Shown piece after piece: positions 3,781 to 23,520 of a DNA stretch of 64,000 nucleotides; positions within the stretch are counted from its first letter, which is position 1; each line of letters begins with the position of its first letter. This DNA is from Thalassovita gelatinovora (GTDB taxonomy: Bacteria; Pseudomonadota; Alphaproteobacteria; Rhodobacterales; Rhodobacteraceae), in NCBI RefSeq assembly GCF_001458355.1, contig NZ_CYSA01000028.1, positions 124,001-188,000 of the forward strand. Reading direction: 5' to 3'. The notes under the pieces were generated by a model. That model was not told the origin of the DNA and ran no database searches. It was given only the letters and a program-made list of their open reading frames with translations. A program made the translations under genes and the position numbers.

Positions 3781-4998
3781 ATGTCGGCTGAGGTTGAAAC
3801 CGTTGCAGACAAGCAAGCCACTGCTGGTGCCCTTCTGCGGGTCTCGTCGCAGAAGATCAGTCGGCTGATGGATCTTGTCGGCGAATTATCATTAAGCGTT
3901 ACGGAGACTGTGAATTCTCCGGATTTGGATCACACTGGGGACCGCACCCTTTTTGAAGCTGCGGCGCACAGATTGAACATGATTGTTCGGGAAGTTCAGG
4001 ATGCCGCGACCGAATTACGTCTGGTCCCGGTTGATGAAGTTTTCAAACGACTCAAACGTATGATCCGAGAAATGGAACGTCAGACCGGCAAGCGTATCAC
4101 CCTTGAAGTGATCGGTGCCGATACCGCGATCGATAAGATGGTGGCTGACCGACTTTATGATCCATTGCTGCATGTCTTGCGGAACTCGGCCGATCACGGT
4201 CTGGAACAGACCGATGAACGGGTTGCCGCTGGCAAGTCTGAAAAAGGCGTGATTACCCTGTCGGCCGCGCAGGTCGGTAGTGAAGTTCAGATTGTTGTCG
4301 GCGATGATGGCCGCGGGCTGAACCGGGAAAAGATTCTGAGCATTGCACGCAAGCGCGGCCTTTACGGCCCCGATGAGGAACCCGAGCCCAGCAAGCTTTG
4401 GAAAGTCATTTTCGAGCCCGGATTTTCGACGGCTGAGAAGGTTTCGAACCTGTCGGGCCGCGGTGTTGGCATGGATGTTCTGAACACCACGATGCGCGAT
4501 CTGCGTGGTCGGATCGCGGTGGAAAGCACAGAAGGCGAAGGGACCCAGGTTTCCTTGCATATTCCGGTGTCGCTGGCATTCTTGGATTGCATTCTTCTGC
4601 GCCAAGGCACCCATCTGTTCGCGGTGCCGGTAGAAGACATTTTCGAAATCGTCAAACCCGGAATTGAATCTTGCATGTCGATTTCCGCGGGGAGCAGGGC
4701 AGAAATGCTGCGTCTGCGCGAACGGCACGTGCCGGTGTGTCGGTTGGAACAGTTTTATGGCGATGCCTTGCCCGACCTAACCCCGCTGTCGGACACCGTG
4801 GCGATCGTGCTGAAGGCCGGAACCCGTTTGATCGCGGTTCCAGTCGATGAAGTTCTGGACCGTCAACAGGTGGTGATGAAACCCCTGTCTGGGGTTCTGG
4901 CGAAGGTGCGCGCCAGCTGGGGCTGTGCGCTTCTGGGGACCGGAGAAGTCGCGCTGGTCCTTGATTCCGAGCGCCTTGCGGCAGGAGAAAACGCATGA
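3781..4998 (+). CDS. cheA4: Chemotaxis kinase CheA lacking the P1 (Hpt) domain, CheA4 type
   Basis: Histidine kinase half of a split CheA. It is 405 residues long and starts directly with a P3 dimerisation helix pair (about 18-82). The P4 ATPase has an N box (LRNSADHGLE, Asn135), a G1 box (DDGRGL, 175-180) and a G2 box (GRGVGMDV, 226-233). A P5 CheW-like domain follows from about 265. No phospho-accepting His domain (P1) or P2 is present. This is the architecture of R. sphaeroides CheA4, which phosphorylates CheA3 in trans. The matching CheA3 is encoded at 9733. The stop overlaps the cheR start by 4 nt (ATGA), so the two are translationally coupled. Confidence 0.93.
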   Translation: MSAEVETVADKQATAGALLRVSSQKISRLMDLVGELSLSVTETVNSPDLDHTGDRTLFEAAAHRLNMIVREVQDAATELRLVPVDEVFKRLKRMIREMERQTGKRITLEVIGADTAIDKMVADRLYDPLLHVLRNSADHGLEQTDERVAAGKSEKGVITLSAAQVGSEVQIVVGDDGRGLNREKILSIARKRGLYGPDEEPEPSKLWKVIFEPGFSTAEKVSNLSGRGVGMDVLNTTMRDLRGRIAVESTEGEGTQVSLHIPVSLAFLDCILLRQGTHLFAVPVEDIFEIVKPGIESCMSISAGSRAEMLRLRERHVPVCRLEQFYGDALPDLTPLSDTVAIVLKAGTRLIAVPVDEVLDRQQVVMKPLSGVLAKVRASWGCALLGTGEVALVLDSERLAAGENA

Positions 4999-9279: not shown

Positions 9280-9684
9280 ATGTCGTATAAAGTAATGATC
9301 GTGGATGATGCTGCGATGATGCGGCTTTACATCTCCAGCTTCCTTAAATCGCTTCCTGAATTCAATATGGTGGCCCAGGCCGCCAACGGTCAGGAAGCGT
9401 TGGACAAGCTGTTGGATTATCCCGATCTGGACCTGATCTTGCTGGATATCGAAATGCCGGTGATGGATGGCCTGGAATTCCTGCGCCATGCCAAGCTGAA
9501 GACACGCGCCAAGATCTGCATGTTGTCTTCGGTCACCGTGCAGGGGTCGCCGCACGCCGCGAAAGCGCGCGAACTGGGCGCCGATGGGGTTGTTGCCAAA
9601 CCGTCCGGGACCGTGTCGCACGATCTGGAAGAAAAAACTGGCGACGAACTTCGTGATACCATGCGTAGGCTGGTTGCGGCCTGA
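9280..9684 (+). CDS. cheY6: Chemotaxis response regulator CheY6
   Basis: Single-domain receiver (134 residues) that binds the flagellar motor when phosphorylated. Asp9/Asp10 form the acid pocket, Asp56 in LLDIEMP is the phospho-acceptor, Ser83/Ser84 occupy the Thr87 position and Lys107 is conserved. Its tail after residue 110 is longer than E. coli CheY (SHDLEEKTGDELRDTMRR). In R. sphaeroides CheY6 is the essential motor-stopping regulator, phosphorylated by CheA3 and dephosphorylated by CheA3. The gene pair cheY6-cheA3, 48 nt apart, is conserved here. Confidence 0.92.
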   Translation: MSYKVMIVDDAAMMRLYISSFLKSLPEFNMVAQAANGQEALDKLLDYPDLDLILLDIEMPVMDGLEFLRHAKLKTRAKICMLSSVTVQGSPHAAKARELGADGVVAKPSGTVSHDLEEKTGDELRDTMRRLVAA

Positions 9685-9732: not shown

Positions 9733-12700
9733 ATGTCGGACGAAATGGATGAAATCTGGGAACTCTTTGCCGATGACGGCTCTCAGTCCCTGGACGCGAT
9801 GGAAGCCGCGCTTGACGCTTTGACCGATGACGGGACCGAGGACCAGGTCCCGCATATTTCAGCCCTGTTCCGCGCGGTTCATACGTTCAAGGGGAATTCC
9901 CGTGTTCTGGGCCTGTCGGTGGTCGAAAGCAGGGCACATCTGGCCGAAGATCTGATTGGTTTGGTCCGAGATTCCGGCGTATCCTTGACGCCCGAAATTC
10001 TAGACCTGCTGTTTCTGACCGGAGACACATTGCGCATCATGCTGGATGACGTTGCCGCAACGCGTGCCGATGTCGATCCTGAACCGTCCGAAGATCTGCT
10101 GCGTCAGCTCAAGGACATGATTGCAAAATGCGATCCCGACGCCCCGGAAGCAAGCCAGCCCGAGACCGAGGAACAGACCGCTGAGGCAGCGCCCGAGGCA
10201 GAGGTGCCCATTCTTGATGCCGAAAAGGTCCCGGCCGCAGCCGCCCCCGTCATCGGCGGTATGGACATGTCAGCGTTGTTTGACGAAATGTCGGATGATG
10301 ACGGTGACGGGACTGCCAATGGCGGCGATGAAGAAGACGATTTCTGGCAATTTGACGAAGATCTCGACGCTGACGCACTGGCCGCCAAAAAAGCCGCTGC
10401 CGAAGCCGATATGGAAGAAGCCGAATCCGAACGCCCGGTTATGCACGGAGAGGCAGCTCCAGTCCCGGTGGAATCTTCGGTAAAAGTTGACGATGGTCCA
10501 CCGTTGCAATCGCTTGCGGACGATCCGACCTATCGCAAGATCTACGCTGAAATGACCGAAGCCATGGTCGAAAAGCTGAATGTGATCCTGCGCTCGGATG
10601 ATGCTTTCGAAGACAGACGCAAAGATGCAGAGAAACAAGCCGATGGCCTGTTGCACGCAGCCCAGCAAATGGGATTTTCCGACTGGGTCGCAGTGTTGGA
10701 AGATTTTGCATTCGATTGCCCTGCGTTGAGTGATGAAGCCGAGCTGGCTGCCGGGTTGAGCGCATTCCTTGGCATGATCGAAGTTTTGCAGAATGGCGGC
10801 GGTGCGCCGGCTGCTGCGGTTTCGGAACCAGCACAGGCTGCGGACGCCGCGCCTGAACCGGTCGCTGAAACTGTGGATGAACCGGCAAGCCCGAAATCGC
10901 TGGCCGATGATCCGACCTATCAGAAAATCTATGCCGATATGGCCGATGATCTGGTTGCGCGGCTGAATGCTATCCGCGACTCCGACGATGATGTCGAAAG
11001 TCGCCGCGACAATGTGGTCAAACAGGTTGGTGGCCTGCTTCATGCGGCGCGGCAGATGGGGTTCGACGACTGGATCGTCGTGCTAGAAACCTATGAAAAC
11101 GAAGCCGGGAAGCTGGCAGACGCCGCTGGGTTGAACGACGGGATAAACGGTTTGCTGGCCAATATCGAAGCGTTGCGCAATGGCGAAACGCCCGCAGCGG
11201 CAGTTCCAGCGATTGAACCCGCTCCTGAGCCGGTCGCGATTGCCGAACCGGCACCTGCACCGGAACCTGCCCCCGAACCAGTTGCCCAGGTCGAGACAGA
11301 TAGCGGGGCAGGGGATCAGCCGAAAACTCTGGCCGATGATCCGACCTATCGAAAAATCTATGCCGATATGACCGAAGAATTGGTCAAGAAGCTGAAGACT
11401 ATCCGAAAATCGAGCGATAGCGTCGAACAACGCCGTAACGATGTTGCCAAACATGTTGGCGGGTTGCTGCATGCTGCTCAGCAGATGGGTTTTGTCGACT
11501 GGATTACCTTGCTGCAGGTATTCGAATCCAATGCCGGTAAATTGTCCGATGATGCAGCCCTGAAGGAAGGCATCGACGGCTTTCTGGCCAATGTCGATGC
11601 GTTGCAGAAAGGCGGTGCGATTGCGCAGCCCAGATCGGGCAGCGACGAAGCCGACGATCTGTTCCGTCAACTGGAACCCTATTACAGTGGGATCGCCGAA
11701 GCGGTTCTGCGGTTGGATGACGATGTCGCGGCTGCGCAGGCCAAACTGAGCGAACTGGCCGATGAAGTCGTTACCAAGGTAGAGGCCTTTGGACTGGTCC
11801 GTGCCGAAGATGCAGTGCGCCGCATCGCCAAGGCCGAAACCGTCAAGGCAGCCCGGATTGCACAGCTGTCCTTTTATGAGGAACTGATTGGCTACGAACA
11901 GGTGATGCCGATCGAAAACAGCGTTTCGGGCGATCTTTTGGTCCGTCCGTCGCATCTGGTACAGCTTTGGGCTACCGATCAGATATTCGACACGCTGGGC
12001 GCATTGCGCAACATGATGGAGCGGGTGTCGCTGGATGGTGAAGGTGATGATTGGTTCGCAAGCTTCAACCACCACATGCGGTTGGTTTTCCACGCCTGCC
12101 ATCATTACAGGATGGAAACCGCCGCCAGCCTGACGATGGCACTGGTTGATCTTTTTGCCCGGGTGAATGAAACAAATTCCGTCGCTGATGCGCTGATGTT
12201 GCATATGGCGCGCGGGTTCCTGGAAACCATTGAGCTGGTCTATGACGCTTTGGATCAGGGTGACGATCCAGATCTGTCGAAAATCGATGATCTGTTCGAA
12301 GAAGCCACCAATATTTCTTTCCAACAGGGTGGCGTTGTTTCGGCCAGGACGATCGAACGCAAACTGGGTCTACCGGAGGAATTTCACCGGGTACTATCAC
12401 CCGACAGCGTGCGTGCCGCTCATGCCGCATTGGTGGATCACAAGAAATTCTATGTTGTCCGTGCCGATCTGAATGAAGATGAAGCTTTGGCCGAAAAGTT
12501 CCTGGAATGGATCGGCGAAGGCAATGCCCAGATGATCACCAATGTTACGGTGTTCGAAGGTGACAAGACGCTGTTCGATTTCCTGCTTGCAACAGAGTTG
12601 GAGCATGACGCCATTGTCGGCGCAATGACCGCGATGGATCCGACGGCCAGCAATCTGTTTGTCGAAATCGTGCTGGAACCCGATTACGAAACCGACGAAG

Positions 12701-13857
12701 ACGACGATCAGGACGACGACGAACCCAGTTCGGAAATCAATGCTTCTGGACCTTCGATCAGCCTGCCGTTGATGGAAGCGATCGGAGAAATTTCTGCCGG
12801 TCAGGCAATGGTGCATCACATTCTGGAAGACCTGTCTTCGACAGATTTGGTGCAAAGCCTCGATCATGTCCTGCGCCGGGTGGAACCGGACAAGGGACCG
12901 GCGCTGGAACCGGATACGTATAATGCGATGCGTGACATTATCGAAACTTATACCCATAAAGTCGCCCGCGCCGCCGAAGCTGAAACTCAGTTGAACGCTC
13001 AGATGGGTCGGTTGCAGGAAGAAACCGCCAAGCTTCGGGAACGTCCCGCAGGTATCTTGCTGCGTACGCTGGCTGCCTTTGTCGAAACCCGGTCGCGTCA
13101 GGAAGGCAAGGAAGCCCGTATGTCGCATAACGGCGAAAATGTCGTTCTTGATCAGGCTATGCTGGACGCGTTGGGCAAGTTGCTGAAAAAGGTGATCCGC
13201 AGTCGTCTGGGCGGTGAAAACGGTCCGGCGCAGTTCCACCTTTCTTTGTCGCGTGCAGATAACCGGGTTTCCGTGTTGTTGGAAGATGACGGAAAGACCG
13301 ATCTGGACCATGATGTATTGCAGGAACTGCATCAGGTGGCGGTGCGCGAAGGCGGTGAATTCCGCCCGGTGCAGATGCCGTCCGGCGGAATGCGGTTCCA
13401 TCTGTCGCTGCCGGTTCATATGGCGCTGCTGGAAGGGATGGTCGTGCGCGTCGGAGACGTCTGCTATGTCGTGCCGGTCAACGCGATCGAACGTATTCAG
13501 CTGGGCGCATCGGATGCTTTGTTGCCGGTTGCCGCGTCGAAGAACAGCGCCATGTTGCGCACCGATACTGGTGAACTGGCCCCGATCCGACCGTTGAGTG
13601 GCCCGATCGAAAACCTGTCCAATCTGACTGCGGCAAATGGGGATGGCAGTTGCTCTGCAAAGCTGTATGTCGTGCTGCGCAGCGATGACCATCGCATCGC
13701 GGTGCCCGTCGACGAGATGCTGGGCCAACAACTGGTGCTGCTGCGCCCGCTTCAAGGCCCGTTGATTGGTATTCGCAACATGATGGGGCTTGCCCTGCTG
13801 TCGGGGGGCGAAGTCGGTATGGTGGTTGCCGTGGATCGTCTGGCCGACGCGGCATGA
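9733..13857 (+). CDS. cheA3: Chemotaxis CheA3-type P1/P5 protein with three Hpt-like repeats and P4 remnant
   Basis: Phosphotransfer half of the split kinase, 1374 residues. P1 is at 1-105 with phospho-acceptor His50 (RAVHTFKG). A long acidic Pro/Ala/Glu linker follows, containing MDMSALFDEM at 177. Three copies of a roughly 95-residue helical repeat begin near 260, 389 and 532 (LADDPTYRKIYA, then GLLHAAQQMGF), separated by PEPA-rich linkers. A large helical region is followed by a degenerate P4-like segment (about 1137-1227) lacking N and G boxes but keeping EDDG. A P5 CheW-like domain closes the protein. R. sphaeroides CheA3 also has P1 and P5 separated by a long region, which carries CheY6-P phosphatase activity. 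CheA4 must supply the phosphoryl group. Confidence 0.92.
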   Translation: MSDEMDEIWELFADDGSQSLDAMEAALDALTDDGTEDQVPHISALFRAVHTFKGNSRVLGLSVVESRAHLAEDLIGLVRDSGVSLTPEILDLLFLTGDTLRIMLDDVAATRADVDPEPSEDLLRQLKDMIAKCDPDAPEASQPETEEQTAEAAPEAEVPILDAEKVPAAAAPVIGGMDMSALFDEMSDDDGDGTANGGDEEDDFWQFDEDLDADALAAKKAAAEADMEEAESERPVMHGEAAPVPVESSVKVDDGPPLQSLADDPTYRKIYAEMTEAMVEKLNVILRSDDAFEDRRKDAEKQADGLLHAAQQMGFSDWVAVLEDFAFDCPALSDEAELAAGLSAFLGMIEVLQNGGGAPAAAVSEPAQAADAAPEPVAETVDEPASPKSLADDPTYQKIYADMADDLVARLNAIRDSDDDVESRRDNVVKQVGGLLHAARQMGFDDWIVVLETYENEAGKLADAAGLNDGINGLLANIEALRNGETPAAAVPAIEPAPEPVAIAEPAPAPEPAPEPVAQVETDSGAGDQPKTLADDPTYRKIYADMTEELVKKLKTIRKSSDSVEQRRNDVAKHVGGLLHAAQQMGFVDWITLLQVFESNAGKLSDDAALKEGIDGFLANVDALQKGGAIAQPRSGSDEADDLFRQLEPYYSGIAEAVLRLDDDVAAAQAKLSELADEVVTKVEAFGLVRAEDAVRRIAKAETVKAARIAQLSFYEELIGYEQVMPIENSVSGDLLVRPSHLVQLWATDQIFDTLGALRNMMERVSLDGEGDDWFASFNHHMRLVFHACHHYRMETAASLTMALVDLFARVNETNSVADALMLHMARGFLETIELVYDALDQGDDPDLSKIDDLFEEATNISFQQGGVVSARTIERKLGLPEEFHRVLSPDSVRAAHAALVDHKKFYVVRADLNEDEALAEKFLEWIGEGNAQMITNVTVFEGDKTLFDFLLATELEHDAIVGAMTAMDPTASNLFVEIVLEPDYETDEDDDQDDDEPSSEINASGPSISLPLMEAIGEISAGQAMVHHILEDLSSTDLVQSLDHVLRRVEPDKGPALEPDTYNAMRDIIETYTHKVARAAEAETQLNAQMGRLQEETAKLRERPAGILLRTLAAFVETRSRQEGKEARMSHNGENVVLDQAMLDALGKLLKKVIRSRLGGENGPAQFHLSLSRADNRVSVLLEDDGKTDLDHDVLQELHQVAVREGGEFRPVQMPSGGMRFHLSLPVHMALLEGMVVRVGDVCYVVPVNAIERIQLGASDALLPVAASKNSAMLRTDTGELAPIRPLSGPIENLSNLTAANGDGSCSAKLYVVLRSDDHRIAVPVDEMLGQQLVLLRPLQGPLIGIRNMMGLALLSGGEVGMVVAVDRLADAA

Positions 13858-15969: not shown

Positions 15970-18309
15970 TCATAACAACGCAAGTGCCAACCGGGTTTCT
16001 TCCAGAAGTTGATCGGTTCCATCCAGTAACGTGGCCATTTCTTTCAAGCGACCGGTCTGGGCATGTTCTTCGATTTCGAGGAAATTCTGGTTCAGGGCCG
16101 CCGCGCCCACGGTGGTGACCGTGGTGCTGGCCTTGCGTGCCATAGCGATCATATCATCCGCTGCAGATGCGTCGAGCGCATTGCGTATATGGGCCAGTGT
16201 GGTCAGGCATTCCTTGTGCAACTGGTGCACAAAAACGGACCAGTTTTCACCGGCGATCTTGGCGATTTGCCGTGATACGGATCTATCCAGAACATCGACC
16301 GGGGCAGCCAGTTCGGCGTTGTTTTCCATTTCCAGATTGGTACCGTTCACCCGGTGGATCACCTCATAAAGCTGGTGGCGGCGCAATGGTTTGACATAAA
16401 CCTTGCTCATCCCGGCGATTTCCGCGCGTTCGCGGATGTCTGGGTCGCTGAATCCGGTCAGGCCGAAGACAGGCATTTCATCCAGCCCTTGCAGCGTCAG
16501 CAGTCGGCGGGTTGCTTCCAATCCGTCAATTCCGGGCAGGCCGATATCCATCAATACCGCGTCCACCTCATTCGTTTGGATCGCCTGCAACGCGGCTTCG
16601 CCGCTTTCAGCGCAAATCGACACACAGCCTTCGCTTGTCAACAGCTTCACCATTAATTCGCGATTCAGTGGGTTGTCGTCGACCACCAGGAACCGCACCC
16701 CCCGGGCATCCGGTGCACGCATTTCGGTGTTCGTGGAAATGGTCTTTGCGTCGATATCGGCAAGCGCAAAGCAAAGCGATACCTTGAATTCGGTGCAGAC
16801 CCCCGGAGTGGAACTGACCCGGATCGATCCGTTCATTGCATCAACCGCCCGTTTGACGATGCTCAACCCCAGACCGGCACTTTGTGCCAGCTTGCTGTAA
16901 TTGGATGAACCGGTTTCAAACGGTACGAACAGCCTGTCGATCTCATCCGCAGCGATTCCTTTTCCGGTGTCGGAAACACTCATGTCTATGGACAGCATTT
17001 TTTGACTGCCCCGACGTACCGATTTGCATTGTGCAGCCAAGGTGATGTTGCCTGAATCGGTATATTTAACAGCGTTGCCCATCAGGTTCTGCACCACCCT
17101 GTGGAACAGATGATGATAGCCTGAAACATATTGATCGGTATCGCAATCCAGCGCCAGTTTGACTTCCAATCCCTTGGAAGCGGCGGCGACGCGGCTTTGT
17201 TCGGCCAGTTTTTTCAGCATTTGATGCGGGTTAAAGACCGAAACCGGGTGATCCTTGATCGGTCGCATATCCATGCGCACATGTTCCAAGGTGTTATTGA
17301 TTTGATCCAAAGCGGTATCGGCAGAACCGCGGATCAATTCCATCAACTGGCGTTGTTCGGGTTTCAGATCTTTGTCCTGCAATAACAAATCCACCGCCGT
17401 GGCAATTGCCCCCATCGGCGTTCGCATTTCATGACTGACGGTGGCAAGGAATTGTGTTTTTGATTGCTCATTGGCACGCGCGATGTCGCGGGCGGCTTCA
17501 AGATATTGCGATCTGTCTAGGGCATCTTTGTATTCGGTACGGGCGACGATGTCGCGCATCACGACCACGAATTGCCGCGATCCGGGCTCTTCTTCGATCG
17601 TCGTGATGGTGACTTCGACCGGATAGCGATCCTTCAACACGCTTTCGACATATACTTCGATTGGGATGCCGGACATTTTTTGAAGAAAGCCACCTGGATC
17701 GGCGGGTTCTTCAAAGCTTTTCAATGTCGCGCCCATATCGACATTGCAAAACAGTGACTGGCCGATCAAATTCGGGCTGCCCAGCATTTTCGACAGGGCG
17801 GAATTTGCCATCGTAAAACAGCCGTTCGCATCGATAGCACCGATCCCGTCGACCGCACTGTTAAGGAATTGACGAAACCGCTTGTCGCTGCGTTTGCGGG
17901 CGCGGATCGCGCGCTGCAATTGCGAACTTTCCGAGCGCAGTTTCTGGAACTGATCCTCGACATCGCCGGGATCAAGCCGGGCCAGAACAAGTGGGATCGC
18001 TGTTCGAGCGGGCAAGCGGGCCATCCGGCTGCGAACTTCGAACGGGATACCGTTGGCATCGTTCAGAACCATCCGACCGATCTTGGGAGAGGTGGATTTG
18101 GCGCAGCGTTTGAGGAACCCGCTGTTGTTCTCGTAGGCATGCAATGCCTTCTGGAAGTCTTCGGTCGGACACAGGCGTTCGGCGGCGCTGTTGGAAAATA
18201 CCACCTTGCCGTCTTCCGTCAGCAGATAGCAGGGCGAAACATCCAGCGCGATGATGTCGGCATAACGCACCAGACTGTCGTCTTGTTGCAGGGTGTCGAT
18301 CTTAGTCAT
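15970..18309 (-). CDS. Cytoplasmic PAS hybrid histidine kinase with degenerate Hpt-like end
   Basis: 779 residues, no membrane segment. Two PAS-like domains (about 15-115 and 145-260) precede the dimerisation helix with phospho-acceptor His293 (ATVSHEMRTPMG). An HATPase_c domain with SDTGKGIA and LGLSIVKRAV follows. The receiver is at about 545-660, with phospho-acceptor Asp in VLMDIGLPG and Lys in YVKPLRR. The last 100 residues resemble an Hpt four-helix bundle (ARKASTTVTTVGAAAL), but Arg stands where the phospho-His should be. The ATG overlaps the stop of the upstream MetOD1 gene (ATGACTAA), so sensor and kinase are coupled. No output partner is obvious nearby. Confidence 0.85.
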   Translation of the reverse strand: MTKIDTLQQDDSLVRYADIIALDVSPCYLLTEDGKVVFSNSAAERLCPTEDFQKALHAYENNSGFLKRCAKSTSPKIGRMVLNDANGIPFEVRSRMARLPARTAIPLVLARLDPGDVEDQFQKLRSESSQLQRAIRARKRSDKRFRQFLNSAVDGIGAIDANGCFTMANSALSKMLGSPNLIGQSLFCNVDMGATLKSFEEPADPGGFLQKMSGIPIEVYVESVLKDRYPVEVTITTIEEEPGSRQFVVVMRDIVARTEYKDALDRSQYLEAARDIARANEQSKTQFLATVSHEMRTPMGAIATAVDLLLQDKDLKPEQRQLMELIRGSADTALDQINNTLEHVRMDMRPIKDHPVSVFNPHQMLKKLAEQSRVAAASKGLEVKLALDCDTDQYVSGYHHLFHRVVQNLMGNAVKYTDSGNITLAAQCKSVRRGSQKMLSIDMSVSDTGKGIAADEIDRLFVPFETGSSNYSKLAQSAGLGLSIVKRAVDAMNGSIRVSSTPGVCTEFKVSLCFALADIDAKTISTNTEMRAPDARGVRFLVVDDNPLNRELMVKLLTSEGCVSICAESGEAALQAIQTNEVDAVLMDIGLPGIDGLEATRRLLTLQGLDEMPVFGLTGFSDPDIRERAEIAGMSKVYVKPLRRHQLYEVIHRVNGTNLEMENNAELAAPVDVLDRSVSRQIAKIAGENWSVFVHQLHKECLTTLAHIRNALDASAADDMIAMARKASTTVTTVGAAALNQNFLEIEEHAQTGRLKEMATLLDGTDQLLEETRLALALL

Positions 18310-18778
18310 CTGCAAAATACTCGAGCCCCGGGGTGGCATCGTCGTTAAAAGAAACGCTGACGCGACACAGGCCGTCTCCGCGTGCGATCGTTTTTTCCAG
18401 ATTAACCTTAGCGTATCCTTTGCAGTTCGATGTCACGTGACCAAAAATATTTGAGGTCATCATGCAGACCGACCGCGTTCCTTGGACTTTTTCGCCGAAA
18501 GGGCAGGCGGAGTTTTCCAGAACAATCCGGTTTTCATCCTTTTCAATCAACCTGAAGGCACCGCCGACGCGCTTTTCCAGATCGATCAGAACATCCGGCA
18601 ATATTTCGCCGTTCGGGCACTCTTTCTCTAGTTGTGAAGCGTACTGATTATATATGATGTGCCCGACATCAGACCCCACTGTGCTAAAGAAGGCTTCAGC
18701 TTCTTCCTCACCTGCAACAGTCTCTAGGACTTTGGTCAAATAGTGCAGAGTGTCGGCCAAAAAACTTTCCCTATCCAT
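18302..18778 (-). CDS. MetOD1-like (methanogen output domain 1) sensory protein
   Basis: 158 residues. The second half matches the Cys-containing pattern of the MetOD1/V4R-related sensory family: NSACPFGEKVQ, then RSVCMMTSNIFGHV and YAKVNLEKTIARGDGLCRVS. Conserved Cys at CPFG, VCMM and LCRV could bind a metal or sense redox. The N-terminal 80 residues are helical. It overlaps the hybrid kinase by 8 nt, suggesting the two proteins act together, with this one as a possible input subunit. A sigma-54 site lies 145 nt upstream, tying it to flagellar control. The ligand is unknown. Confidence 0.75.
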   Translation of the reverse strand: MDRESFLADTLHYLTKVLETVAGEEEAEAFFSTVGSDVGHIIYNQYASQLEKECPNGEILPDVLIDLEKRVGGAFRLIEKDENRIVLENSACPFGEKVQGTRSVCMMTSNIFGHVTSNCKGYAKVNLEKTIARGDGLCRVSVSFNDDATPGLEYFADD

Positions 18779-20101: not shown

Positions 20102-22996
20102 TCACTTTGGAAAAAATTGATAGAGGTCATCCAGAGTGGCCTTTTTCGTCGGTTCCGCTAAGGGGGCTGGTTCTGCCTGTGATACAGGGTCATCGATAGC
20201 TTCAGGGTTGTCCACAGGGTCGGATGTTGAGGGCGTCAGCGGCGCGGCTTCTGTGGTTGTCGTCATCGGTGCCAGATCGTCGGGCAATTCCGCACGAGGG
20301 CTACCTTGAATATTGGACTCAGGTAATTGCGGTTTCATCTTGTTTTCCGCACTTGAAACCTTATCCGCATTTGTTGCCCCCATAAGCGCTTCGAATTCGG
20401 AGTAGTCTGGCGCGATATCCTCAGACGCGGGCTGCTCCGGTTCTTCTGTTTCCGTTTGCAATGGTGCCGCTGGGACCGGGTCGTGCGGTGCTGCCGCTTC
20501 GGCGCCAGCTTCGGGGCTGCCAACGGCTGAGGGTGAATCGAACTGTTCCGCCGCAGGATCCAATTCGGGTTCTGACCGGATCGGGGCCATCGAAGATGCT
20601 TCAGGTAGACCACCCATCAGTGCTTCGAATTCGGAATAATCAGGTTCGTCGGTATCGGGTTCGAACGCAGTTTCATGCTGCGCTGTGTCGGATTCTGAGC
20701 GGTAAGGTGTCTTGGTGGAGTCTTCGAGTCCGGAGATATCCTCTGGTGCATCTTCATTCGGCAACGCATCGCGCAAATCAGTAAGGCCGTCCGCCCCGCC
20801 AGCGATGATTTCCTGTTGTCCGTTGTCATCAGCGATATCATCGGGGGCGTTTTGCGCTGCATTCTCTGTGGGCGGGTGCGGTTGGGACAACATGTCGGAG
20901 AAGGCTTCTAAATCATCGTCGTTGGAGGATGTTGGCGCTTGTTGCGGGGCAGGGGCATGATCCTCTGCGGCCTGCAAATCGACCGTTGTTTGTTCCTGCG
21001 TGGAGAGCGATTGATCGTCCGGGTGATCGGCGTCGTCGGAACCAAGCGGTTCGGAATTGTGTATTGCGGCCATCGCGTCGGCTTCGGTGGTCGCAGTTGG
21101 GGACGGTTCCAATTCTGGCGCATCATCGGCCGCTAGATCAGGATCGACGGCGCCGCCCGACAGAGCTGCAAACAACGCCGTCAGGTCATCCGCGTCGTCA
21201 TCGATGGCGTCCGGTTGCTCCGCATACCCGTCATTGTCATCAAGATGCGCGGTTTGATCCGCAGGGATTTCTGTATCAGACGCTTCTATATGGTTCAGCG
21301 TCACTTCCAGGTCGGTTGAAACGCCGTCTTCTTTTACGTCTACGTCCGATGCCTGTTCCACAGTAGGCGCTGCTTCCACCCCGGCTGTTTCCAGTTCGAA
21401 TTCTACATTCGGGTTGTTTGGCGCATCAAGGCTTTGTGGTTCGGGCGGGGCACCGATATCTTCGGCCAGATCAGCGACGGTAAGCTCTTCCCCCCGATCA
21501 TCCGGAACGTCGGCGGCAGCCTTTGCGTTCGATCCGGCGTGATGGGGCCCCTGTTCGCCGGTGTCTTGCATCGCGGCCATCAGGGTCTCGAGGTCATCAG
21601 CGGTGTCATCTGAGGCAGTTTCTTCTGTATTGGGTTCCTCCGGCGCGTCGGACATCGCAGCCATCAGCGCTGTCAGATCATCGTCGCTTTCGTCCTGATC
21701 TTCATCGATCAAGGCCGACATATCGGGCATTTCCGCAGCACCCGAGGCCGGATCGTCAGGGACGGGGGGGATGGTTGGGGCGGGCAGATCAAGTTCAGCG
21801 ACGGTATCGTCATTGGTTTCAGGGACGCTGTCCTGCTGCAATGCACCCATCAGGGCGGTGAGATCGTCATCGGAATCATCCGCAATGGTCGCGGTTTCGT
21901 CTGCCTCCGGTTCCTCTGGCGTGTCGGACATCGCAGCCATCAGTGCCGACAGGTCATCGCCGCTTTCGTCCTGATCTTCATGGTTCAAATCGTTCAAGGC
22001 CGACATATCGGGCATTTCCGCAGCACCGGAGGTCGGATCGTCAGGAACGGGGGGGATGGTTGGGGCGGGCGGATCAAGCTCAGCGACGGTGTCGTCATTT
22101 GTTTCAGGGGCACTGTCCTGCTGCAATGCACCCATCAGGGCGGTGAGATCGTCATCGGAGTCATCCGCAATGGTCGCGGTTTCGTCTGCCTCCGGTTCCT
22201 CTGGCGTGTCGGACATCGCAGCCATCAGTGCCGACAGGTCATCGTCGCTTTCGTCTTCATCTGCATTGCCCAAGTCGTTTAGCGCGGACATGTCCGGCAT
22301 CTCGATCGCTGCGGAAGCCGGGGCCGATCGGGCGTTGTCGTTGGTCACGTCCGGGCCAGCATTTGCTTCAAGCGCAACGGTATCTTGCATTTCGCTTGCC
22401 GTGCCGTCCCCGGACATCGCGGCCATCAGCGCCGATAGATCGGAGCCATCGTCACTCTGATCTTTATCTTCTTCAGTGTCGGTCAAATCGTTAGTGTCGG
22501 CCAAATCGTTCACGGCCGACAGGTCTGGCAATTCAGTCGCATCGCCATCCTTATCGTCATCATCATCAGACATCAGCGCATTGAGTTCACCGAAATCCAC
22601 CGCCCCGGCCCCGGTCGGCTTTGTTGGAGCAGGGGGCGGTGTTTCTTCAGTTACGTTGGCGCTGCGCTCGACCGCTCCGAACAGAGCGCCGAGATTGTCC
22701 AGATCGACAGCGGTAACCGTGCCGGAATTATCCTGTTCAGGTTCCGGTTCGACCTCGATGATTTCTTCCACCACGGGTTTCGGTTTTGGCTTGCGTTTGC
22801 GCGAAGAACGTTTGGGTTTCTGCGTGTCCTGAAGAAGTTTGATCCGCGCCTGCAACAGCAGAACTTGATTTTCAACCGAGTCTTCTTCAGCCGCGGCCGC
22901 CTGCAATACGCTGGCGGCTTCTAGCGGCGGCTTGTCATCGAGCGCCTTCAAGATTTTTGAAATGACCGCAGGTACCCGCTTCTTTGTCCTGACCAT
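20102..22996 (-). CDS. Giant acidic, disordered repeat protein of the flagellar regulon
   Basis: 964 residues. A helical N-terminal part (about 1-70, [20 protein letters not shown]) leads to a Lys/Arg/Pro stretch ([15 protein letters not shown]) and then about 850 residues of Asp/Glu/Pro/Ala-rich sequence with no folded domain or membrane segment. A short motif of the form (D/A)DL(S/T)AL(M/F)xA(M/L) occurs at least eight times, with related forms PDMSAL and [10 protein letters not shown]. Three tandem 95-residue units lie around 21650-22310. The C-terminus is a conserved-looking DDLYQFFPK. The ATG at 22996 has GAGGA upstream. Transcribed from its own sigma-54 site, divergent from flgB. Function unknown; a multivalent scaffold is one possibility. 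Confidence 0.85.
21650..22310 (-). repeat. Three tandem 285-bp units inside the acidic protein gene
   Basis: The GGCAT of each PDMSAL-encoding segment recurs at 21726, 22011 and 22296, exactly 285 bases apart (95 codons). Units 1 and 2 are nearly identical over most of their length; the third diverges after its first half. The frame is kept throughout, so this is recent in-frame duplication. Confidence 0.9.
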
Positions 22997-23018: not shown

Positions 23019-23035
23019 TTGGCATTGTCCTTGCA
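23019..23035 (+). promoter_or_regulatory. Sigma-54 promoter for flgBCDEF
   Basis: TTGGCATTGTCCTTGCA fits the -24/-12 consensus with exact spacing. It lies 101 nt upstream of the flgB ATG. It faces the minus-strand sigma-54 site at 23077-23093, and the acidic-protein transcript would run through it. Confidence 0.8.
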
Positions 23036-23136: not shown

Positions 23137-23520
23137 ATGTCTCTGATCCGCGATCACCTCAACGTTCACACCCAGGCGTTGCAGTTGCGTGAACAGCGCA
23201 ACAATATTCTTGCTTCGAATGTCGCCAATGCCGCGACACCGGGTTTCAAGGCCCGTGACATCGATTTTCAGTCATCTTTGAAACAGGCCATTGGCAGCGG
23301 GGAACTGAAGACCACAAGCGTCGGCCATATCCCGGTCAGCGGAAATGCGGGTGATCAACTGCAATACAGACAGCCGACGATCACTTCGCTTGATGGCAAC
23401 ACCGTTGAAATGGGGGTTGAACAGATGGAATTTGCCGAAAACACCGTGCGGTATCAATCCAGCCTGGAGTTCCTCAATGCCAAAATCCGGGGCCTGACGC
23501 AGGCGATGAGAGGAGAATAA
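23137..23520 (+). CDS. flgB: Flagellar proximal rod protein FlgB
   Basis: Proximal rod subunit in the periplasm, 127 residues. It has the axial-protein N-terminal motif ([20 protein letters not shown]) and the C-terminal helix ([20 protein letters not shown]) that form the coiled rod core. AAGAGG precedes the ATG. First gene of flgBCDEF, with flgC 3 nt downstream. An upstream in-frame extension to 23035 is rejected because it would start within the sigma-54 element. Confidence 0.95.

Follow-up and report, generated by a model that had tools for sequence, protein, structure and literature searches.

The stretch of Thalassovita gelatinovora DNA analysed here (64,000 nucleotides, hereafter the window) carries, divergent from a Fla1-type flgB (23137-23520, plus strand, assigned by Pfam), an open reading frame of 964 codons plus stop whose ATG lies at 22996 on the minus strand (20102-22996). 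The product, designated P0001, had been described in an earlier note, made from the letters and translations, as a 964-residue acidic, low-complexity protein of multivalent design, and the counts agree with that description. Residues 91-960 hold 229 Asp and Glu vs 18 Lys and Arg, the entire protein has a pI of 4.05, and Trp and Cys are both absent (0 each). By the charge/hydropathy rule, P0001 is predicted to be disordered, a prediction made from composition only. The strict motif (D/A)DL(S/T)AL(M/F)xA(M/L) occurs six times, or eight times when two near forms are counted, so that the 'at least eight' copies of the earlier note hold for the relaxed form and not for the strict one; neither the strict motif nor a seven-copy relaxed pattern arose in 2000 shuffles of the protein (0 times each). 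By motif count, seven copies cluster at residues 185-476 (21569-22444, minus) and one stands alone at residues 603-612 (21161-21190, minus), accompanied by two further forms that the earlier note had also listed, PDMSAL (three times) and YSEFEALM (twice), the latter at residues 787-794 (20615-20638, minus) and 865-872 (20381-20404, minus). Copy number is owed in part to a tandem duplication of 285 bp within the gene, detected by repeat finding (21633-22267; 2.3 copies, 90% matches). Beyond the array, the conserved pieces, none of which the earlier note had anticipated, are an N-terminal domain at residues ~8-57 (22826-22975, minus), a first motif at residues 92-110 (22667-22723, minus) that is conserved between P0001 and its relatives L049 and L050 and has a counterpart in other class B proteins defined below, and a C-terminal tail (20105-20143, minus) whose conservation is confined to the three nearest kin; the middle region is poorly conserved.

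The P0001 and flgB start codons are 141 bp apart (ATG to ATG), leaving an intergenic gap of 140 bp. A sigma-54 promoter beside flgB had been proposed in the earlier note, and sigma-54-like sites are in fact present in both directions: TTGGTGCGATACTTGCA faces P0001 (23077-23093, minus) and TTGGCATTGTCCTTGCA faces flgB (23019-23035, plus), each agreeing at 11 of the 13 scored positions. Among 77 comparable flgB loci, described below, a site with at least 11 of 13 positions lies on the flgB side in 75, and on the side of the divergent gene a site scores at least 11 in 25 of the 77 and at least 9 in 58, where the shuffle expectation, computed for at least 11 only, is 0.08. P0001 probably owes its transcription, like the flgB operon beside it, to a sigma-54 promoter, use of the sites being judged from their sequence. 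Farther from flgB, two overlapping genes convergent with P0001 (19055-20076) encode a protein of 128 aa without a confident family and one of 212 aa with Sel1 repeats, and between fliS and the P0001 region lie overlapping genes for a MetOD1-domain protein and a PAS hybrid histidine kinase (15970-18778).

Searches with P0001 itself gave little: BLAST with the whole protein found its own genome only (1 of 198), a plasmid search had no match, N-terminal peptides used as queries found no relative, and Pfam and NCBIfam contained no fitting family (0), in line with the earlier note, to which no named flagellar protein of this design was known. Relatives of P0001 were instead reached through its neighbour flgB. 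With a cut-off of E<=1e-25 for a Fla1-type FlgB, 23 of the 394 genomes in the family sample were positive, and all 23 (24 loci) carry a gene of similar plan divergent from flgB. A second, named set was drawn from the best 80 FlgB loci among the matches listed. Three of these (L052, L088, L125) were left out because their contigs end near flgB, and of the 77 with enough upstream DNA, 76 have such a gene, the sole miss being L106. Some hand work was needed: the L055 frame was corrected, starts were chosen for the family-sample (G) set, one of them TTG, and the L028 and L020 proteins run past their contig ends.

The family plan consists of an N-domain of ~50 residues, a hinge rich in Pro and acidic residues, and then either a C-domain of ~55 residues (class A) or an acidic motif region in proteins of 140-1454 aa (class B). 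Applied to 77 proteins (the 76 named ones plus P0001), the C-domain profile matches 56 and leaves 21 without a match. Two of the latter, L117 and L121, have weak C-domain matches (E 4 and E 0.19) and were excluded from class B, being counted as class A in the named co-occurrence set below, so that class B comprises 19 proteins including P0001. Both the C-domain and the motif are present in L055 and in L030 of the first set. A profile of class A proteins (set A2) was built from 53 of the 56, three with unknown residues being omitted. A profile of the class A N-domain matches P0001 at E 3e-5 among the 77 proteins and reaches E<0.001 in 6 of the 21 proteins lacking a C-domain match, with a profile-profile value of 95.8%; searched against the entire T. 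gelatinovora genome, the class A profile finds the P0001 gene at E 1.5e-4. A profile search for the class A C-domain had no match in P0001, which places it in class B. On these matches, and from its position divergent from a Fla1-type flgB, P0001 is a class B member of an unnamed flagellar-cluster family and not an orphan. The earlier note had named a restriction of homologues to genomes without flagella as evidence against its reading. No such restriction is seen: the 23 FlgB-positive genomes all have the divergent gene, and of the 16 genomes (of 394) that match the class A profile at E<=0.01, 14 are FlgB-positive with the match beside flgB, and in the other two (G255 and G327) the match is weak and located elsewhere. 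The class A profile had 5 weak matches among PDB sequences, judged to be chance (best E 0.0069), and among PHROGs there were weak matches to unnamed families only. The C-domain of class A bears a faint resemblance to DUF7210 (PF23843), with E<=0.1 in 24 of 53 members and a best value of 1.7e-4; P0001 lacks the C-domain.

The class B motif follows the hinge and reads roughly (S/T)-phi-D-L, a brief gap, then hydrophobic residues with acid. It is single in proteins of 140-144 aa from Roseovarius and Marivita and forms long arrays in Donghicola (1271 and 1454 aa, built of DPFAAF units), Thalassococcus (1008 aa) and P0001 (964 aa). A FlgB/C/F/G tree, from which L061, L083 and L112 are omitted and whose root is uncertain, groups the 18 class B rows with L055 to one side of a branch whose SH-aLRT is 100; L052 and L125, in which the divergent gene was not readable, fall on the same side. 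The suggestion that the motif is a remnant of a C-domain helix was not supported (13 of 55; of 100 permuted matrices, 10 did as well). Class A protein L090 (5123-5878, minus), of a lineage next to class B, has LSALMQEMEDK once in its acidic tail (p 0.002), so the motif is perhaps older than class B. Behind the class A genes of L029, L037, L038, L039, L042 and L044 lies a small conserved open reading frame (112-123 aa) whose product starts with a hydrophobic N-terminal stretch and finishes in a C-x(5-6)-F-x-M-like sequence; it is absent behind P0001.

A well-studied system with a comparable gene is that of Cereibacter (Rhodobacter) sphaeroides, where RSP_0084 by its numbering adjoins flgB (RSP_0083), as the P0001 gene adjoins its own flgB. 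Excerpts of one study list RSP_0084 as a hypothetical protein whose expression tracks that of the flagellar genes (log2FC 2.86 and -1.81; PMC9779115). Its orthology with the family is inferred from the presence of the divergent gene in L030 (G051) and L055 (from a close relative, Luteovulum azotoformans), whose products (388 and 269 aa) combine C-domain and motif; P0001 differs from them in having a long array and no C-domain. Fla1-type is used here in the sense of the R. sphaeroides 'Fla1' flagellum, which is itself counted as 'fla3-type' and not as the archetypal Rhodobacterales fla1 in the excerpted text of PMC12363192. In the full-text open-licence literature, no title among the matches listed concerned RSP_0084, and none dealt with a flgB-divergent protein or a disordered motor array for CheY~P.

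CheA3 is the split chemotaxis kinase/phosphatase of the R. sphaeroides Fla1 system, and a CheA3-like protein of 1374 aa, with Hpt, long middle and CheW regions, is encoded in the window (9733-13857, plus; Pfam and comparison). It is preceded by a CheY-like open reading frame, named by eye and taken from its position to be CheY6 (9280-9684, plus), and the window also has a CheA4-like gene (3781-4998) and genes for CheR, CheB, CheW and a receptor (Pfam). When a loose form of the P0001 pattern was run over 35 window proteins, P0001 gave 11 matches. The single match in CheA3 (GGMDMSALFDEMS) falls in the acidic linker that follows its Hpt domain, and three others (the hybrid kinase, FlgE and FlgG) gave one each. 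The motif MSALFDEMSDD in this linker (10267-10299, plus) is found by both pattern and matrix scan. The matrix was derived from the first motif of the divergent proteins, own kin excluded. Pooling two sets, 16 of 24 CheA3 linkers carry the class B motif at p<=0.05. The first set contributed 8 of 10 (one at 0.050; Fisher p 4e-10), with 0 of 200 column-permuted matrices as good, and the second 8 of 14 (Fisher p 1e-12), with 1 of 200 as good; the Fisher values are too small, since they assume independent genomes and these genomes are related, and the permuted matrices are the safer guide. In the second set, a fixed length of 140 residues was imposed on six linkers, and the L074 CheA3 has no Hpt start in its locus. 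As controls, class A acidic tails reached the threshold in 2 of 28 cases and class A linkers in 4 of 30, a count that includes L055's own motif. A scan of 101 open reading frames from regions of the T. gelatinovora genome (35,442 aa), with a matrix excluding P0001 and its two nearest kin, ranked the CheA3 linker first (17.4), ahead of P0001 (16.3) and FliG (14.2). Eight of the 24 linkers fell short of p<=0.05, among them those of G104, G368, L083, L105 and L127, in which the divergent proteins are nonetheless class B. The idea that each CheA3 linker is paired with the divergent protein of the same genome was rejected, as such pairs were no closer than mixed pairs (P 0.46), in a test whose shuffles gave p<=0.05 in 3 of 10, the scoring being misled by Pro/Glu runs. 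A DDFF signature was counted in 8 of 25 and 6 of 26 cases, with the printed context offset.

A second tie to CheA3 lies in its middle region, in which profile comparison delimits three copies of a repeat domain (10519-10806, 10906-11193 and 11335-11613, all plus). L050, the P0001 orthologue of Thalassobius sp. Cn5-15, contains three domains of this type (E 6.4e-41), two of them nearest to its own CheA3 (42% and 35%) and the third to that of L049; the other divergent proteins, P0001 included, had no match to the repeat domain at E<=1. The likeness to CheA3 thus consists of a similar motif in an acidic linker and, in L050, of the repeat domain in triplicate, whereas Hpt, CheW and kinase domains (Pfam) and the CheA3 repeat domain are all absent from P0001. 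In C. sphaeroides, the CheA3 middle is described as two degenerate Hpt domains (by HHpred) with a degenerate P2 and kinase domain (PMC10782961). An Hpt identity for the repeat domain was tried and rejected, its comparison with the Hpt domains of the same proteins giving a probability of 0.9%, and the repeat region had 10 weak matches among PDB sequences (best E 0.05), judged to be chance.

Class B membership tracks the presence of CheA3, and this is a new result. Pooled over 28 class B and 25 class A genomes, assumed all different, CheA3 is present in 25 of the former vs 0 of the latter; in the first set the figures are 10 of 13 and 0 of 10, and in a named selection (30 of the 76 loci) 15 of 15, L055 counted, and 0 of 15. 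Given that the genomes share ancestry and that class B forms a single branch, neither these co-occurrences nor the p values represent independent events. In G174, G326 and G289, the last a class B genome, CheA matches were only weak. CheA3 is missing from three class B genomes (G117, G289 and G351); these FlgB-positive genomes have no FliM either, which makes flagella in them doubtful. FlhA is missing from G117, and G289 and G351 have only one of a lower-scoring kind, which in other genomes is the second copy; their flagellar clusters may have decayed. Their rod-hook clusters (L188, L190 and L191) have the class B gene and no FlhA of the usual type. Gene content near flhA also varies: class A loci L180, L181 and L182 have the order flhA-flhF-flhG, class B loci L174, L175, L178, L192, L195 and L196 lack flhG and carry a short FlhF-like gene in the interval from flhA to fliA, and in class B locus L194 flhA adjoins fliA.

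The motif common to P0001 and CheA3 suggests that P0001 links the flagellum to chemotaxis signalling, and the class B evidence as a whole points to the chemotaxis branch, through CheA3, over rod assembly. It is enticing to speculate that the small N-domain anchors P0001, and that the long, presumably disordered acidic arm, with its short and putatively amphipathic motif copies amid acidic residues, docks a partner that CheA3 would also dock by way of the similar motif between its Hpt and repeat domains. In class B, the C-domain of class A is missing and one to many motif copies are present, L055 and L030 retaining the C-domain. The most likely partner would be the motor-stopping regulator CheY6, and the arm might then act as a multivalent dock that concentrates or buffers CheY6~P in the vicinity of the flagellum; we regard this as the leading interpretation, with a likelihood falling a little short of even. 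CheA3 phosphorylates CheY6 and dephosphorylates CheY6~P and no other CheY~P, and no CheZ is recorded for R. sphaeroides, according to the excerpted portions of two papers (PMC2924250, PMC6829392). The P2 domain of CheA proteins is a dock for CheY and CheB (PMC10782961), and the CheA3 linker motif could act like such a dock, although the degenerate P2 reported in the CheA3 middle means that a docking motif in the linker would not be required (PMC10782961). Class A proteins occur without CheA3, and hence the ancestral role of the family would be something else. A fuller and distinctly more speculative version, which we consider unlikely as a whole, would have class B proteins be multivalent, disordered docking arms for CheY6~P at the flagellum, of single origin, that arose with the uptake of the split CheA3/CheA4 system by the Fla1-type flagellum, motifs replacing the globular domain, copy number tuning CheY6~P at the motor, and one lineage additionally gaining CheA3 domains. 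Whichever partner is involved, a gene that lies beside flgB in nearly all loci examined, and that corresponds by position to the overlooked RSP_0084 of a well-studied flagellar system, gains a concrete, testable tie to CheA3. If the CheY6 proposal is true, a repeat array would handle CheY~P on the motor side, and the arrangement would shed light on the way in which a flagellum came by a new chemosensory input.

The same motif, domain-sharing and co-occurrence data would suit an arm whose motif binds CheA4, CheW4 or TlpT and so ties the cytoplasmic chemotaxis cluster to the flagellum. CheA3, CheA4, CheW4 and the Tlps do share one cytoplasmic cluster in R. sphaeroides (PMC6829392), but the CheW4, CheA4 and receptor interactions reported in the excerpts of that paper need no such protein, and each of the three partners is a candidate only; we consider this tether unlikely, if worth weighing. 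The earlier note, whose account of the protein's design, sigma-54-like site, position beside flgB and namelessness is borne out, had favoured a scaffold made with the basal body. On this reading the arm would bring together components of the rod, hook or export apparatus during assembly and play no part in chemotaxis. Divergence from flgB, the sigma-54-like sites and the existence of class A forms in genomes where CheA3 is absent (0 of 25) fit this, yet it does not anticipate that the change to class B accompanies CheA3 or that the motif recurs in CheA3 linkers, and that part of the note now appears rather unlikely.

The gene content near flhA prompts a further reading, in which the task of setting how many flagella there are, or where, passed from FlhF and FlhG to the class B proteins. 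At E<=1e-12, flhG was detected in 9 of 10 class A vs 0 of 13 class B genomes, and in the class B genomes whose flhA region was read, the gene between flhA and fliA is short and FlhF-like, or missing as in G341. The pattern may be coincidence, however, because a single branch is involved, and nothing in P0001 resembles either the GTPase or the ATPase, so that this substitution is very improbable. In enterics, flgA, flgM and flgN occupy the corresponding genomic place, and an export chaperone or regulator might on that ground be expected here; P0001 matched neither FlgN nor FlgM, nor any other family, in Pfam and NCBIfam, and both were absent among the matches listed (25 of 38 Pfam families) for the 53 class A members, which leaves this reading with even slighter prospects. 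Least credible of all is the proposition that the arm is drifting filler and that the N-domain is the only part that matters. The spread of lengths from 140 to 1454 aa, the recent duplication and the weakly conserved middle would be expected of filler, as would the fact that the P0001 array resembles the first motif of P0001 no more than shuffles do (z -0.95), but the C-terminal tail is conserved in three kin, the motif is present in CheA3 linkers, and across the family the motif echoes have a mean z of 1.77 with 0 of 60 permuted matrices as good, one strong match (L055) sitting in the L055 C-domain.

The FliM N-terminus is a CheY~P-binding site, and by eye its short, amphipathic, helix-like peptide is similar to the class B motif. 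Mimicry of FliM was suggested by this likeness; the matrix tests give it no support (mean z 0.21, with 23 of 60 permuted matrices as good), and the 3 of 19 FliM N-termini that reached p<=0.05 for the class B motif are not above chance. In the FliM N-termini read (from L147 and L150-L168), the motif of the class A genomes (9) has the form E-V-(D/N/E/S)-A-L, and that of the class B genomes (10) the form E-(V/L)-A-A-L.
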